In this document: positions 2,383 to 31,219 of the stretch, one piece after another
How positions within the stretch are numbered: position 1 is the first letter of the stretch
How the letters are laid out: every line of letters starts with the position of its first letter
Assembly: GCF_002812705.1 (NCBI RefSeq)
Contig: NZ_CP025030.1
Location: 1,612,001 to 1,676,000 of the forward strand
DNA from: Achromobacter spanius
GTDB taxonomy: Bacteria; Pseudomonadota; Gammaproteobacteria; Burkholderiales; Burkholderiaceae_B
Direction of reading: 5' to 3'
Length of the DNA stretch: 64,000 bases
Program-made: the position numbers and the translations under genes
The notes under the pieces: model-generated
What the model saw: the letters and a program-made list of their open reading frames with translations, nothing else
The model's database searches: none
Told to the model about the DNA's origin: nothing

Positions 2383-3984
2383 GTCCCACGGTGACATATC
2401 GGGCGTCTGTCGCGTCGGCGCCAGCACCCGTTCCAGCGTTGCCGCGCAGTCCAGCAGTGGGGCATCGCGGCCCGCGGGGGCCAGTAGCTGTACACCGATC
2501 GGCATGCCTTCGGCGTCGAAACCGGCGGGTAGGGTGATGGCGGCCGCGCCCAGGAAATTGGCGGGGCGCAGCAGCTTGCCAAGGCCTACGTGGCGCACGT
2601 CTTCGGCGTCCAGCGGCTGCGCACCCTGGTCGCAGGCGGGCATCAGCAGGGCGTCCAGCCCTTGCATGGCGCCGGCAAATGCGGCCATGTCGGCCTGCCG
2701 CCGGTTCAGCGCGGCTTCGTAGTCTGCCTGCGCGATCCGGCCGCCCGCCGCGATGCGCGCGCGCACCACTTCCCACAAGGGCGCGGCGGGGTTTTCGGCC
2801 AGCGCGCCGAAATAGCGATAGGCCTCGTACGCCAGCACCAACGAGTTGTCGTCCGCCATGCGGGCGAACGACAAGGAGGCGGGCGGATGCCAGGCGGTGG
2901 GCCTCAGGCCGGCTTGTGCAAGGCGCTCTTGTGCTTGATGCCAGACCTGCAGGGCGGCGTCGGACAGCGGCGCGGGCCAGGCTTGTGGCGGCAATATGGT
3001 GACAGAGATGGGAACGTTTAAGGCGGAGGAGGAGGCGGCAGCAGGGAGGGCAACGTCACCGGAGGCGGCGGAGGAGGCGAGGAAGGCGGAGGAGGAGGAG
3101 GCAGAGGAGGAGGCAGTAGGGGGCGTAACAGCACCGGCGGAGGTGGGGGCGGTAGCGGTGGCCGAGAAGGCGAGAGCGTTAGCGGCGACTCGGCGCGCCA
3201 CGGGATGGCGCAGCGCGGTGACGCAGGAGGCGTGCAGCGCCAAGGTGGCGGCGTCGTCCACATCGGGTCCGGCCAGCACTTGCGCCAGCAGCCGGGCGTC
3301 CGCCACGCTGCGGGCGATGGGCCCCAGCACATCCAGCGTGTCCGACAGTGGCAGGCAGCCGGCGCGGCTGATCAGGCCCGACGATGGCTTGTAGCCCACC
3401 ACGCCATTAAGCGCGGCGGGCGCGCGTACCGAACCGCCGGTGTCGCCGCCCAGTGCGATGGGCGTCAGGCCGGCCGCCACCGCCACGCCCGCGCCGCTGG
3501 ACGATCCGCCGGGCGCGCGTGCGACCTTGGCGTCCCACGGGTTGCGCGCCGTGCCTTGGGTAGGGTTCTGGCCCGACAGCCCAAACGCGAATTCCGTCAT
3601 GCGCGTCTTGCCCAGAATCACCATGCCCGCCGCCGCCAGCGCGCGCACCGCCGCCGAGGTTTCCGTGCTGATCACGCCACGCCGCGCCTGCGAGCCGCCG
3701 GTGGTGGGCGTGCCCTGCCACTGGATGCTGTCTTTCACCGCCACCGGCACGCCGTGCAAGGGACCCAGCAGCATGCCCGCGTCCTGCAACCGGTCCGCCG
3801 CGTCGGCCTGGGCCAACGCGCGTTCGGCCGTGACTTCGCTGAAGGCAGCCAGTGGCGCGGCGCGTTCGATGCGGTCCAGGAAGTGGGCGGTGACCTGGCG
3901 CGAGCTCAGTTCACGGTCACGGATGGCGCGAGCCAGTTCGCGGGCGTCTCGAAAATGCAGGTCGGTGGGGTGTTGTGCTGGCAT
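2377..3984 (-). CDS. Amidase (amidase signature family) with a low-complexity insert
   Basis: Hydrolyses an amide bond; the substrate cannot be told. The amidase-signature Ser-cisSer-Lys triad is visible: Lys in GVPVAVKDS near residue 84, the serine cluster GGSSSGAG near 160, and the nucleophile Ser in GGDTGGSVRAP near 185. About residues 273-321 are an Ala/Ser/Pro-rich stretch, unlike the rest of the protein and not typical of the family, placed where a surface loop is expected before the C-terminal half. The C-terminus ends at a TAG donated by a palindromic repeat. I chose ATG 3984 (MPAQHPTDLHF) over an in-frame TTG at 3996; neither has a strong ribosome site. It follows the MFS transporter gene on the same strand, but a terminator separates them. 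Confidence 0.85.
   Translation of the reverse strand: MPAQHPTDLHFRDARELARAIRDRELSSRQVTAHFLDRIERAAPLAAFSEVTAERALAQADAADRLQDAGMLLGPLHGVPVAVKDSIQWQGTPTTGGSQARRGVISTETSAAVRALAAAGMVILGKTRMTEFAFGLSGQNPTQGTARNPWDAKVARAPGGSSSGAGVAVAAGLTPIALGGDTGGSVRAPAALNGVVGYKPSSGLISRAGCLPLSDTLDVLGPIARSVADARLLAQVLAGPDVDDAATLALHASCVTALRHPVARRVAANALAFSATATAPTSAGAVTPPTASSSASSSSAFLASSAASGDVALPAAASSSALNVPISVTILPPQAWPAPLSDAALQVWHQAQERLAQAGLRPTAWHPPASLSFARMADDNSLVLAYEAYRYFGALAENPAAPLWEVVRARIAAGGRIAQADYEAALNRRQADMAAFAGAMQGLDALLMPACDQGAQPLDAEDVRHVGLGKLLRPANFLGAAAITLPAGFDAEGMPIGVQLLAPAGRDAPLLDCAATLERVLAPTRQTPDMSPWDL
3022..3168 (-). repeat. Purine/pyrimidine-asymmetric low-complexity tract inside the amidase gene
   Basis: On the plus strand this is almost all GGA/GGC/GAA triplets (for example GGAGGAGGAGGCAGAGGAGG), so one strand is purine-rich. 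It encodes the Ala/Ser/Pro-rich insert of the amidase and keeps frame. Clustered GG and GGG runs could form G-quadruplex or triplex DNA. Triplet slippage is the simplest origin. Confidence 0.75.
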
Positions 3985-26855: not shown

Positions 26856-27719
26856 TCAATTCGCCTGATCCTTGCCCGAATCTTGCGCCAGCACCTGCGG
26901 TGTGGGGTAGCTGGGTTCGGGCGCGTTCACCGGCTCGATGCGCAGCGGCTGGTGCACGCGGCTCAAGGGCACCAGTGAGCTGGGGTCGTCGGGGTTGGTC
27001 CACAGCGGGTCGGGGATCTCGGCGAAAACCTGGCGCAGGCGTTCGCCCCAGGTGCCGCGGATCATGCGGAAGTATTCGTTGTTTTCGTCGATGCTGGCAA
27101 AGTGCGTCACGCGCAGGGCGTTGGTGTCATACACCAGCAAATCCAGCGGCAGGCCCACGGAAATGTTCGACCGCAAGGTCGAGTCCATGGAAATCAGCGC
27201 GCACTTGGCGGCTTCGTCCAGTGACGTGTCGGGTCGCAGCACGCGGTCCAGGATGGGCTTGCCGTACTTGGCTTCGCCGATCTGGAAGTACGGGCATTCC
27301 TGGCCGGCTTCAATGAAATTGCCGGCCGCGTAAACCTGGAACAGGCGGCAGCGTTCGGCGCCGATCTGTCCCCCGAAAATGATGCTGACGTTGAAGTCCA
27401 CGCCTTGCTCATGCAGGGCAGGGGCTTCGCGCTGGTAGACCTCGCGCACGGCGGCGCCCACGCAGCGGGTGGCCTCGAACAGGTCGGTGGCGGTCCAGAT
27501 GGTGTCGCCGCCTTCCTCGTGCTGGCGGGCCAGGGCATGCAGCACGGCCTGGCTGACCGCCAGGTTGCCGGAAGTCATCATGACCATGACGCGCTCGCCC
27601 GGTCGTTCGAAGACGGTCATTTTTCGGAAGACGCTGATCTGGTCGACGCCCGCATTGGTGCGGGAGTCAGAGAGAAATACCAGGCCAGCGTCAAGGCGGG
27701 CGGCTACGCAGTAGGTCAT
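26856..27719 (-). CDS. Anbu: proteasome/HslV-like peptidase
   Basis: Ancestral beta-subunit ('Anbu') of the Ntn-hydrolase fold, 287 residues. After Met removal the first residue is Thr1 (TYCVAARL), with Asp17 in LSDSR and Lys32 in FRKM, equivalents of the HslV Thr1, Asp17 and Lys33 sites. HslV itself is about 175 residues; the C-terminal extra part (PDPLWTNPDDPSSLVPLSR...) is typical of Anbu. ATG 27719 is chosen because it exposes the nucleophile. Known Anbu proteins assemble into open rings or helices, with substrate unknown. Last gene of a four-gene operon with ATP-grasp, alpha-E and transglutaminase-like proteins. Confidence 0.9.
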   Translation of the reverse strand: MTYCVAARLDAGLVFLSDSRTNAGVDQISVFRKMTVFERPGERVMVMMTSGNLAVSQAVLHALARQHEEGGDTIWTATDLFEATRCVGAAVREVYQREAPALHEQGVDFNVSIIFGGQIGAERCRLFQVYAAGNFIEAGQECPYFQIGEAKYGKPILDRVLRPDTSLDEAAKCALISMDSTLRSNISVGLPLDLLVYDTNALRVTHFASIDENNEYFRMIRGTWGERLRQVFAEIPDPLWTNPDDPSSLVPLSRVHQPLRIEPVNAPEPSYPTPQVLAQDSGKDQAN

Positions 27720-27773
27720 GATCGAAAATTTGGAGAAACCACGCCGCATTGTATTGCGGCGCGGGCGCGGCGG

Positions 27774-28577
27774 TTATTGCTGGCCGGACGTCTGCACCTG
27801 CACGCTGATCTCCATGGATTCCTCGCCGCCGCCGCTGCGCACGCCGCGCACCGGCGAGGCCGAGTCATAGTCGCGCGCCACGGCCAGGCGGCAATGGCTG
27901 TCCGAGGCGAACTGGCGGTTGGTGATGTCGACGCTGGTCCAGCCGATATCGGCCAGCCATACGTCGGCCCAGGCATGGCTGGCCGAGTGTTCGGTGGTGG
28001 TGTGCACGTAGCCGCTGACGTAGCGCGCGGGCACGCCCAGGCCGCGCACGCAGGCCAGGAACAGGTGGGCGTGGTCCTGGCATACGCCGTGGCCCATCGC
28101 CAGGACCTGGTTGGCGGCCGTGGTGACGTCGGTGGTGCCGGGCTCGTAGGCGACCCGGTCGCTGATGGCGTTGGCCAGCGCCAGGATGTCGTCCGGGGTG
28201 GTGATGCCGTTGGGCAGCACGCTGCGCACAAAGGCAAGAATGGTGTCGTCGGCTTGCGTCAACGAGGTCTGCACGCAATAGGCGTGGACGGGCAGGCGGC
28301 TGTCTTCGCCGCCCAGCAGGCCGCGCGTCAACGGCGCCACCTGCACCTGCCCCACCACGCGCAATTCAATATCGGTGTGGGGCCGGTTCAAGGTCAGCGT
28401 GTGCGTGATGTTGCCGTAGGCGTCCACCTGCTTTTCCAGCGCGCCCGGTGCTTCGATGTTCCAGCGCAGCAGGCGCTGGTGCTCGTCGTCGCGCGGGGTC
28501 AGGCGCAGCGTCTGGATGCTGTAGGTGACCGGCGCGGTGTAGCGGTAGTGGGTGATGTGCGTGATGAACTGTTTCAT
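27774..28577 (-). CDS. Transglutaminase-like cysteine protease-fold protein
   Basis: A 267-residue cytoplasmic protein with an N-terminal beta domain (HYRYTAPVTYSIQTLRLTPR) and a transglutaminase core. The triad is complete: Cys166 in GHGVCQDHAH, His201 in SHAWADVW and Asp217 in VDITN. The family can cut or make isopeptide bonds. It starts 15 nt after the alpha-E gene stop and lies 54 nt before Anbu. In this setting a role in cutting or transferring a peptide made by the ATP-grasp protein is plausible, but unproven. Confidence 0.9.
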   Translation of the reverse strand: MKQFITHITHYRYTAPVTYSIQTLRLTPRDDEHQRLLRWNIEAPGALEKQVDAYGNITHTLTLNRPHTDIELRVVGQVQVAPLTRGLLGGEDSRLPVHAYCVQTSLTQADDTILAFVRSVLPNGITTPDDILALANAISDRVAYEPGTTDVTTAANQVLAMGHGVCQDHAHLFLACVRGLGVPARYVSGYVHTTTEHSASHAWADVWLADIGWTSVDITNRQFASDSHCRLAVARDYDSASPVRGVRSGGGEESMEISVQVQTSGQQ

Positions 28578-28592
28578 GGTGCTGTCTCCAGG

Positions 28593-29567
28593 TTATGCCG
28601 ACAGCGGAACCAGGAAGTCCTGGCTGATCCGGTTGCCCAGGTCGTTGATGCGGTCCAGGAAATGGTCCAGGTATTGGTGCAGGCCACTATCCAGGATGTC
28701 TTCGACGCGGCCGAATTGCAGCTCGGCGCACAGCATGCCCGCGCGCCGCTGGGTTTCGGTCGAGCGCTGGTTCGATACGCGCGCCAGGTCCTCGGACACC
28801 GCGCGCATCGACGCCAGCAGCGATCGCGGCATGTCGGGGTGCAGGATCAGCAGCTCGGCCACGCGATCGGGCGTGATGACGTCGCGATACACCTTGCGGT
28901 AGATCTCCAGCCCGGACACAGAACTCAGCAGCGCCGACCAGCGATAGAACTCGCTTTGCAGCGCGGCGGTGCCGGAGGGTTCGCCGCGGGACTCCATCGT
29001 GCCGTTGCTGCCGCGTTCATGGAACTTCACGTCCAGCATGCGGGCGGTGTTGTCCGCGCGTTCCAGATGCATGCCGATACGCAGGAAGTACAGCGCCTCG
29101 TCTTCGAGCATGGTGCCGATGGTGACGCCACGCGCCAGGTGCGAACGGAACTTCACCCATTCGAAGAACTCGCCGGGGTTGCGTTCCAGCAGGCCGGTAT
29201 GCAGGTGCTTGAGCAGCTCCAGCCAGGTGGTGTTGTACGTTTCCCAGACTTCGGTCGTCAGGCTGCCGCGCACGGCGCGCGCGTTCTCGCGGGCGGCACG
29301 CATGCAGGAATAGATGGACGAGGCGTTTTCCGGGTCGCGCACCATGTACTGCAGCACGTCGTGCGGCGAGATGGATGCGTACTTGCTTTGATATAGCCCT
29401 TGCAGTTCAGAGATGCGCAGCACGCCCAGCCACGAGCCTTCGCGCGTTTGCGTGTCTTGCGGCAGCAGCGACATCTGCAGGTTCACGTCCAGCATGCGCG
29501 CGGTGTTTTCGGCGCGCTCGATGTAGCGGCACATCCAGAACAGGTTGTCGGCGGTACGGCTCAGCAT
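28593..29567 (-). CDS. Alpha-E domain protein (DUF403)
   Basis: An all-helical 324-residue protein of the alpha-E family, starting MLSRTADNLFWMCRYIERAENTARML. A second helical ERADNTARMLDVKFHER block near the middle looks like an internal repeat of the first. Function is unknown, but it nearly always accompanies circularly permuted ATP-grasp and transglutaminase-like genes. ATG 29567 begins two bases after the ATP-grasp stop, so coupling is tight; a longer upstream frame overlaps that gene and is rejected. Confidence 0.9.
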   Translation of the reverse strand: MLSRTADNLFWMCRYIERAENTARMLDVNLQMSLLPQDTQTREGSWLGVLRISELQGLYQSKYASISPHDVLQYMVRDPENASSIYSCMRAARENARAVRGSLTTEVWETYNTTWLELLKHLHTGLLERNPGEFFEWVKFRSHLARGVTIGTMLEDEALYFLRIGMHLERADNTARMLDVKFHERGSNGTMESRGEPSGTAALQSEFYRWSALLSSVSGLEIYRKVYRDVITPDRVAELLILHPDMPRSLLASMRAVSEDLARVSNQRSTETQRRAGMLCAELQFGRVEDILDSGLHQYLDHFLDRINDLGNRISQDFLVPLSA

Positions 29568-29569
29568 GT

Positions 29570-31000
29570 TCAGTCCTCCAGAACCCAGGTGTCTTTGGTG
29601 CCGCCGCCCTGGCTGCTGTTGACCACCAGCGAGCCTTCGGTCAGCGCCACGCGGCACAGGCCGCCGGGCACGGTGCGGATGTCTTTGCCGCACAGCACGT
29701 AGGGGCGCAGATCCACGTGGCGCGGCGCCACGCCGGATTCCACGTAGGTGGGCACGGTGGACAGCGCCAGCGTGGGTTGCGCGATGTAGTTGCTGGGGTT
29801 GGCGCGCACGCGGTCCTTGAAGGCGTCGATCTCGGCATGGCTGGCGGACGGGCCCACCAGCATGCCGTAGCCGCCGGCGCCGTGCACTTCCTTCACCACC
29901 AGCTCGTGCATGTTGGCCAGCACGTGGGAAAGTTCGCTGGGCCGGCCGCAGCGCCAGGTCGGCACGTTGGACAGGATGGGTTCTTCGCTGAGATAGAACC
30001 GGATCATGTCGGGCACGTAGAGATAGGTGGATTTGTCGTCGGCGATGCCGGTGCCGATGGCGTTGGCCAGCGTGACGCGGCCGGCGCGGTACACCGACAG
30101 CAGTCCAGGCACGCCCAGGGCCGAGTCGGCGCGAAACGACAGCGGGTCAAGAAAGTCGTCGTCCAGCCGGCGGTAGATCACGTCCACCTTGCGCGGGCCT
30201 TGCGTGGTGCGCATGTAGACGGTGTTTTGTTCGACGAACAGGTCTTGTCCTTCGACCAGCTCCACGCCCATCTGCTGCGCCAGGAAGGCGTGTTCGAAGT
30301 AGGCCGAGTTGTACATGCCGGGCGTCAACACCACCACGGTGGGGTCGTCGCCGCCATGTGGGGCCACTTCGCGCAGGTTGTCCAGCAACAGGTCGGGGTA
30401 GTGCGCCACGGGTTCGACCTTGATGCGGCTGAAGGCGTCGGGCATCAAGCGCATCGACATCTTGCGGTTTTCAAGCATGTAGGACACGCCCGACGGCACG
30501 CGCAGGTTGTCTTCCAGCACATAGAACTCGCCCGCGCCGGCCCGCACGATGTCCACGCCTGCGATGTGGCAGTAGATGTCCTCGGCCACATCCACGTCCT
30601 GCATTTCAGGGCGGTACTGGGCGTTCAGGAAGACCTGTTCGGCCGGCACGATGCCGGCGCGCACGATGTCGTGGCCGTGATAGATGTCGTGGATGAACAT
30701 GTTCAGCGCGCGCACGCGCTGCTTCAGGCCGGCTTCCAGGTGCCGCCATTCGTCGGCGGGAATGATCCGGGGGATCAGGTCGAACGGGATCAGGCGTTCG
30801 GTGCCGGCGGCGTCGCCCGCGACCGAAAAAGTAATGCCGACCCGGCGAAAGCTCAGGTCGGCTTCCAGGCGGCGCACGGCCATGGCTTCAGCCGATTGCT
30901 CTTGGTGCCAGCGTTCGAACGCCTGGTACTGGGAGCGGATGCCGCCTGCGCCTTGGCGCATTTCGTCATAAGCGGCGGGACGGGATGTTCTGTCCTTCAT
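29570..31000 (-). CDS. Circularly permuted ATP-grasp peptide-ligase-like protein
   Basis: A 476-residue protein of the circularly permuted ATP-grasp group (DUF404/DUF407). Visible blocks are YVLEDNLRVPSGVSYMLENR near residue 165, VTLANAIGTGIADDK near 300 and VVKEVHGAGGYGMLVG near 370, the last with the ATP-binding lysine and glycine loop. ATP-grasp enzymes join a carboxylate to an amine through an acyl phosphate, so peptide or amide ligation is expected; substrates are unknown. ATG 31000 is preceded by GGAGG at ideal spacing. It leads the operon ATP-grasp, alpha-E, transglutaminase-like, Anbu. Confidence 0.9.
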   Translation of the reverse strand: MKDRTSRPAAYDEMRQGAGGIRSQYQAFERWHQEQSAEAMAVRRLEADLSFRRVGITFSVAGDAAGTERLIPFDLIPRIIPADEWRHLEAGLKQRVRALNMFIHDIYHGHDIVRAGIVPAEQVFLNAQYRPEMQDVDVAEDIYCHIAGVDIVRAGAGEFYVLEDNLRVPSGVSYMLENRKMSMRLMPDAFSRIKVEPVAHYPDLLLDNLREVAPHGGDDPTVVVLTPGMYNSAYFEHAFLAQQMGVELVEGQDLFVEQNTVYMRTTQGPRKVDVIYRRLDDDFLDPLSFRADSALGVPGLLSVYRAGRVTLANAIGTGIADDKSTYLYVPDMIRFYLSEEPILSNVPTWRCGRPSELSHVLANMHELVVKEVHGAGGYGMLVGPSASHAEIDAFKDRVRANPSNYIAQPTLALSTVPTYVESGVAPRHVDLRPYVLCGKDIRTVPGGLCRVALTEGSLVVNSSQGGGTKDTWVLED

Positions 31001-31219
31001 GGCTCCTCCGATGCTGTGCTTGCTGCCGGCTTGTGGGTGGCCGGCTTGCACGCGGTCAACCCGGCCAATGCTCGGCCGGTCACAAACTAATAAGCAACCC
31101 GCGTGCCAGCTTTTGGGGACACGCCTTTGGGGAAATATCCTCTCAAGGGCGCTGAAACACCATCCCCTCGGCGGTTGATGGCACCGCTTTGGTGCGCGCC
31201 GCCGGGCGGTTCTGGTGCG

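Follow-up and report, generated by a model that had tools for sequence, protein, structure and literature searches.

What does the Anbu operon do, and under which condition does it act? The question is raised by a 64,000-nucleotide stretch of the Achromobacter spanius genome (hereafter the window; contig NZ_CP025030.1, positions 1,612,001 to 1,676,000), where four adjacent genes encode an ATP-grasp ligase, the helical protein alpha-E, a transglutaminase-like cysteine enzyme and Anbu. Anbu is a proteasome relative known since 2008, and no substrate for it has been demonstrated in the literature searched. Our preferred reading, to which we give slightly less than an even chance, is that the four genes represent the known Anbu operon in Achromobacter, that the sigma-54/NtrC sites before them predict activation in nitrogen starvation, and that their proteins make and then cut or transfer a small peptide-like amide. 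The promoter, overlooked in the preliminary description of the window, is the strongest clue to the process. The sites and genes are as follows.

31181-31195, minus strand: predicted NtrC-type enhancer dyad GCACCAAAGCGGTGC, GCACC-AAAGC-GGTGC, with a perfect core dyad
31093-31108, minus strand: predicted sigma-54 (-24/-12) promoter TGGCACGCGGGTTGCT, 0 mismatches to TGGCNC-N5-TTGCW
29570-31000, minus strand: ATP-grasp peptide/amide ligase, first gene, 476 aa, circularly permuted type 2 (PF14403)
28593-29567, minus strand: alpha-E helical partner, 324 aa (PF04168, 325.5 bits)
27774-28577, minus strand: transglutaminase-like cysteine enzyme, 267 aa, Cys166-His201-Asp217 (PF01841 and PF08379)
26856-27719, minus strand: Anbu, proteasome-like N-terminal-threonine hydrolase, 287 aa, beginning with Met then Thr

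The predicted promoter and its recurrence

Both sites lie in the 219-nt gap between the 5-formyltetrahydrofolate cyclo-ligase frame and the ATG of the ATP-grasp gene, which is itself preceded by GGAGGA. TGGCACGCGGGTTGCT is the sole sigma-54 match with 0 mismatches in the window, where 22 others have 1 mismatch, and the NtrC dyad is 87 nt upstream of it, start to start. A sigma-70-like site was looked for in the gap and was not found. The genome encodes an NtrC scoring above the NCBI cut-off and two sigma-54 (RpoN) genes (G000:C1:1199672 and 4230489). With the pair at an enhancer distance and the regulators encoded, dependence of the operon on NtrC and sigma-54 is predicted; this and every other statement on its control is a prediction from sequence.

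The pair was searched for in the whole genome, a single contig of 6,425,783 bases. A strict pattern (GCACC-N5-GGTGC, 58-88 nt, TGGCAY-N5-TTGCW) occurs 3 times, with 0 occurrences of a reversed-pattern control, and a looser pattern occurs 5 times, with 1 in the control. The three strict pairs precede the Anbu operon, a second cluster (G000:C1:4025489, spacing 88) and a PnrA-like gene set. The second cluster (L043:3489-12907, within G000:C1:4022001-4042000), with its own perfect sigma-54/NtrC pair at 3489-3592, contains in order a transglutaminase 58% identical to that of the window, a transglutaminase-DUF2126 protein, an ATP-grasp/alpha-E fusion, a third transglutaminase and a Peptidase_Mx zinc peptidase. 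Thus, one genome has two ATP-grasp/alpha-E/transglutaminase clusters behind nearly identical predicted control regions. The third pair (L071:3718-8566, G000:C1:1291718 on) stands before a PnrA-like binding protein gene followed by ABC transporter genes (nucleoside transporter).

Recurrence was examined upstream of ATP-grasp genes in the same order, Burkholderiales. Alpha-E was present in 63 of 120 genomes, and besides the window genome, 59 loci were fetched from 58 of the other 62. L038, L049 and L062 were dropped because the ligase or its start was missing, and the remaining 56 loci gave 57 usable upstream regions. A sigma-54 site was counted with up to 1 mismatch, and a pair as both sites at a spacing of 40-200 nt. 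Sigma-54 sites were found in 39 of the 57 regions, NtrC dyads in 29 and pairs in 21. When scaled to 57, dinucleotide shuffles (60 rounds) give 0.77, 2.02 and 0.0, respectively, random windows of the same loci (n = 2280) 1.43, 3.65 and 0.28, and regions upstream of other open frames (n = 636, frames called mechanically) 0.99, 3.41 and 0.18. The reverse strand gives 3 sigma-54 sites and 0 pairs; the dyad count does not change there, since the dyad is symmetric. The sigma-54 site is found in 33 of the 45 genera and in 26 of the 31 families, and the pair in 18 genera and 16 families. With ligases at least 58% identical to that of the window, the sigma-54 site is present in 37 of 48. These counts are inflated by kinship among the genomes, and a few loci may have been counted twice.

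A second sample of 99 loci, 98 of them usable, extends the range. Gammaproteobacteria outside the order have sigma-54 sites in 15 of 24 and pairs in 8 of 24, while seven further loci of the order have 3 sigma-54 sites and 0 pairs. Among named loci (the best 80 of 592), 25 match the sigma-54 pattern with no more than 1 mismatch, as a raw, uncontrolled count. No literature on paired sites across genera, or on a pair common to both clusters, was found among open-licence papers. Nitrogen control itself has already been published, and what is added here is the breadth at the sequence level, the pairing and the sharing by both clusters.

Proteins of the operon and the dependence of Anbu

The preliminary description reported four tightly spaced genes, and the coordinates bear this out with four minus-strand frames separated by 2, 15 and 54 nt. 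The gaps are exact with the alpha-E start at the ATG at 29567, chosen as in its 324-aa close relatives, which are Achromobacter proteins. The order of ATP-grasp, alpha-E, transglutaminase and Anbu on one strand is that which defines the Anbu operon. In other genomes, 229 of 233 loci have the ATP-grasp gene followed by alpha-E. These loci were preselected for carrying either of the two, and some may have been counted twice (e.g. L148 and L177, whose contigs are equally long); five more loci were left out, four at contig edges and one without a standalone ATP-grasp gene. The complete four-gene order is found in 49 of the 99 loci of the second sample, all picked for alpha-E.

The gene identities given earlier were also correct, as profiles and sequences of solved structures agree. 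The ligase scores 561.8 bits with CP_ATPgrasp_2 (PF14403), covering the profile end to end (positions 1-374 of 374), and 513.9 with CP_ATPgrasp_1, and matches the solved relative 3n6x at E 2.2e-215. The cysteine enzyme scores 82.4 with Transglut_core and 79.2 with Bact_transglu_N, its solved relative 3isr matching at E 2.9e-9. Anbu scores 24.8 with the Proteasome profile (cut-off 22.4) and matches the sequences of five solved structures (E 3.4e-97 to 1.2e-63), of which three bear the name Anbu and two the name 'Peptidase'. Its C-terminal tail, within 26856-27000, extends about 40 residues past the typical 240-250 aa, and several relatives in the order have similar lengths.

Intact catalytic residues, another earlier claim, are confirmed by alignments of family members from the fetched loci, in which the window protein is one row. 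Anbu is expected to have Thr1, Asp17 and Lys32/33 without a propeptide, and the window protein has Thr2, Asp18 and Lys33 counting the Met. By the same numbering, the Thr follows the first residue in 112 of 114 members (the remaining two have one Ser and one gap), Asp18 is present in 113 of 114 and Lys33 in 114 of 114. The Cys-His-Asp triad of the transglutaminase-like protein, as expected of bacterial members, is inside the Transglut_core domain, with Cys166, His201 and Asp217 conserved in 97%, 100% and 100% of 137 members.

Alpha-E is built of two halves that are homologous and contain one Glu-Arg (ER) motif apiece; Glu24, Arg25, Glu176 and Arg177 are each conserved in at least 98% of 215 members. 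When residues 1-150 were compared with 150-331 by hhalign, the probability was 99.4 (E 6.7e-22, 140 columns, 24% identity), decreasing to 0.2 when the second half was reversed. The two ER motifs stem from an internal duplication. The AF2 model is all-helical and of high confidence (pLDDT 91.2, pTM 0.90). A solved relative was sought by sequence and none was found (best E 0.67), nor was a clear fold relative.

The fold of the ligase was approached through the model of a relative, a ligase/alpha-E fusion, and the window's own ligase is tied to it as a sequence relative of 3n6x. Foldseek matched the model to 3n6x at E 3.9e-27 among 48 matches at E up to 0.001. Apart from 3n6x, YgiC and 'Ligase Cp1B', these are glutathione and homoglutathione synthetases, glutathione-synthetase-like effectors, and glutathionylspermidine and trypanothione synthetases. 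Glutathione-type synthetases link the carboxylate group of a gamma-glutamyl peptide with an amine. According to the model, the ligase would share the glutathione/glutathionylspermidine synthetase-type fold, and a gamma-glutamyl peptide is its candidate substrate only.

Does Anbu need the ligase module, or the module Anbu? Among 299 Pseudomonadota genomes, with Anbu called at E 1e-10 or better, alpha-E is present in 156 and Anbu in 102. Both are present in 101, Anbu without alpha-E in 1 (G211) and alpha-E without Anbu in 55. Part of these genomes are incomplete. When the sample is restricted to the 239 with a completeness of 90% or more and a contamination of 5% or less, alpha-E is present in 141 and Anbu in 96, leaving at least 45 with alpha-E but not Anbu. 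The dependence is one-way: Anbu relies on the ligase module, and the module stands without Anbu. The gammaproteobacterial loci L086 and L091, from genomes without Anbu, still carry the site pair.

Other hydrolases accompany the module. A Peptidase_Mx zinc peptidase gene begins where alpha-E ends in 8 loci (L207, L209, L214, L217, L173, L174, L085 and L182), and DUF2126 relatives are present in 78 of 239 loci searched. Gamma-glutamyltranspeptidase, which we take to be another Ntn hydrolase, occupies the slot of Anbu in one locus only (L128:2590-4173), starting 72 nt past the end of the transglutaminase match; the genome of that locus has no Anbu. The idea that one protein regularly takes the place of Anbu was considered and rejected. 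The next frame was sought in 20 loci where Anbu had not been found (none listed for 4), and ten of the candidate proteins were scanned, yielding one each of gamma-glutamyltranspeptidase, U32 peptidase, AstE/AspA, ATE and CobW, and five without a family, hence no single replacement. Incidentally, a gene of the arginyl-tRNA-protein transferase family (ATE) begins 99 nt beyond the alpha-E match in L120:6056-6889, and a relative is also present in L153.

Expression under nitrogen limitation and the competing readings

PMC6376114 and PMC5666114 already describe the four-gene association, Anbu structures, unsuccessful assays for an activity of Anbu, turnover of ATP by the ligase, and hypotheses of tagging, bearing out the earlier remark that the association is known and its function unexplained.

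In wild-type P. putida under nitrogen limitation, PP_2686, PP_2687 and PP_2688 increase 12.6-, 11.0- and 14.7-fold, and in a relA/spoT mutant 37.3-, 16.6- and 32.8-fold (PMC7801951). PP_2685, the Anbu gene, increases 4.81-fold in the relA/spoT mutant and 1.45-fold in the rpoN mutant (PMC7801951), and 11.1-fold under nitrogen versus carbon limitation (PMC3325844). On nitrate versus ammonium, PP_2685 and PP_2688 change by log2 4.44 and 3.99 (PMC8050072). A B. cenocepacia cluster resembling the second Achromobacter cluster (I35_5080-83) decreases by log2 6.0 to 9.4 when ntrC is mutated, and it is listed with the targets that NtrC and sigma-54 share (PMC5491218). COG3484 is listed among sigma-54 targets (PMC12316311), and the domains of the operon are correlated with those of urea metabolism in marine metagenomes (PMC3597751). 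A term search for these gene names in papers on the M. smegmatis GlnR regulon, P. phymatum and P. stutzeri returned none.

We conceive the following course. Phosphorylated NtrC and sigma-54 RNA polymerase would start transcription near 31082. The ATP-grasp ligase would then activate a carboxylate as an acyl-phosphate and join an amine to it, as its kinship to glutathione and glutathionylspermidine synthetases suggests. Alpha-E, a helical domain that is internally duplicated and that the second cluster has fused to a ligase of this kind, may hold or position the substrate. The cysteine enzyme and Anbu would act on the product as amidase or transferase. Nitrogen control and the one-way dependence point to both condition and target, namely a ligase-dependent small amide in nitrogen-starved cells.

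Several observations weigh against this course. Induction of PP_2686-2688 persists in the P. putida rpoN mutant (14.2-, 16.0- and 19.6-fold; PMC7801951), arguing against a strict need for sigma-54 in that species, and it was this that lowered our confidence to just short of even. The urt genes, likewise assigned to NtrB/NtrC, also stay induced in that mutant (PMC7801951). Anbu itself (PP_2685) changes only 1.12-fold in the wild type (PMC7801951). Published assays of the Yersinia bercovieri protein, YbAnbu, gave no peptidase or amidase activity, and ATP turnover by the ligase was not stimulated by Glu or Gln (PMC6376114). In the model of the ligase/alpha-E fusion (pTM 0.70, weak linker), docking of alpha-E is not confidently predicted. 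The sites also thin out with distance: the more distant ligases of the order have the sigma-54 site in 2 of 9, and other Pseudomonadota have sigma-54 sites in 18 of 67 (controls below 1) but the NtrC dyad in 1 of 67, not above the control level, and no pair. In none of three cyanobacterial loci (L232, L235 and L239) is the ligase gene preceded by an NtcA box (GTA-N8-TAC), and an independent cyanobacterial nitrogen regulator was rejected on this ground. The predicted nitrogen signature is strong in Beta- and Gammaproteobacteria, and in other groups it is weak or of another form.

Could the operon tag and degrade proteins instead? The preliminary description saw a resemblance to a bacterial tagging system, a guess already in print (Iyer 2009 and Valas and Bourne 2008, through citations in PMC6376114 and PMC5666114) that the locus itself does not show. 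The ligase and transglutaminase would attach a peptide to proteins, and Anbu would degrade or untag them, as a proteobacterial analogue of amino-acid recycling by the Pup-proteasome in nitrogen starvation. Anbu is a proteasome relative, and the best support is that the nitrogen-type control parallels the role of the Pup-proteasome in nitrogen-starved M. smegmatis (PMC8223512). On the other hand, gaps of 2, 15 and 54 nt leave no space for a modifier gene inside the operon, and neither a small modifier nor an AAA+ unfoldase is among its four genes, although the genome beyond the operon was not searched for them. Anbu is absent from 55 of the 156 alpha-E genomes, the fold of the related ligase is of a small-peptide ligase type, and specific binding of operon proteins to YbAnbu was not detected in published work (PMC6376114). 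We keep tagging as a rival and consider it unlikely, favouring a make-and-break amide cycle in nitrogen starvation. A free-standing role of Anbu as a general protease that liberates amino acids, the other three genes serving a separate purpose behind the same promoter, would fit the nitrogen-type promoter and has been suggested for P. putida (PMC7801951, PMC5666114). Such a protease would not need alpha-E, which is present in 101 of the 102 Anbu genomes, and the published YbAnbu assays show no peptidase activity (PMC6376114); we regard this role as very improbable.

The sites might be incidental or unneeded, the operon being constitutive or driven by another promoter. Moderate constitutive expression, cited in PMC5666114, and the induction surviving in the P. 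putida rpoN mutant (PMC7801951) speak for this. Against it stand the recurrence far above controls, the published nitrogen-limitation induction in P. putida, the related B. cenocepacia cluster with its dependence on NtrC and sigma-54 (PMC5491218), and the search of the 219-nt gap, in which no sigma-70-like site was found. We hold it slightly more improbable than a general protease. Least probable to us is a nitrogen-storage or cross-linked peptide polymer, made by the operon and later mobilised by its hydrolases. Nitrogen-type control, a ligase and hydrolases in one operon would suit it, but cells usually build storage polymers when nitrogen is plentiful rather than in starvation, and the operon has no polymer-synthase domain apart from ATP-grasp.

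The amide cycle can be taken a step further, to a proposal we regard as possible yet doubtful. Anbu would be an amidase of an undescribed nitrogen-starvation metabolite, not a proteasome. The Anbu operon and the DUF2126 cluster, both under predicted NtrC control, would form one pathway, in which ATP-grasp/alpha-E make glutathione-like peptide amides and interchangeable hydrolases (transglutaminase-like, Anbu, zinc peptidase Mx and, in one lineage, gamma-glutamyltranspeptidase) break them. If true, a branch of the proteasome family is a metabolite amidase. NtrC control as a general property of DUF2126 clusters was examined separately and rejected: of 12 loci, 3 had too short an upstream sequence, and among the other 9 the pair is present in 2, the window genome's own and L054, and the L054 pair belongs to a neighbouring standalone operon, not to the DUF2126 cluster.

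Comparison with known systems

The operons of P. putida (PP_2685-PP_2688) and Yersinia bercovieri contain the same four gene families as that of Achromobacter, and nitrogen-limitation induction has been published for P. putida (PMC7801951, PMC8050072, PMC3325844). In Achromobacter, by comparison, the site pair is read directly from DNA, and a second cluster carries the pair too. B. cenocepacia I35_5080-83 (DUF404/407-DUF403-transglutaminase-large transglutaminase) is similar in content to this second cluster, with no Anbu among its four listed genes. The second Achromobacter cluster differs from it in that the ligase is fused to alpha-E and a zinc peptidase is present.

The ligase family of the Pup-proteasome system is presumably unrelated to the ATP-grasp ligase of the operon. 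Like the Achromobacter operon, that system combines an ATP-dependent ligase with a proteasome relative and has a role in nitrogen starvation (PMC8223512), whereas the operon is without a modifier or AAA+ unfoldase.

The closest working analogue is the glutathionylspermidine/trypanothione synthetase/amidase, to which the ATP-grasp fold is matched and in which ATP drives the formation of an amide that a cysteine enzyme cuts. Glutathionylspermidine and trypanothione synthetases bear their own cysteine amidase. In Achromobacter, on the other hand, the ligase and the cysteine enzyme are separate proteins, and alpha-E and a threonine hydrolase come in addition.

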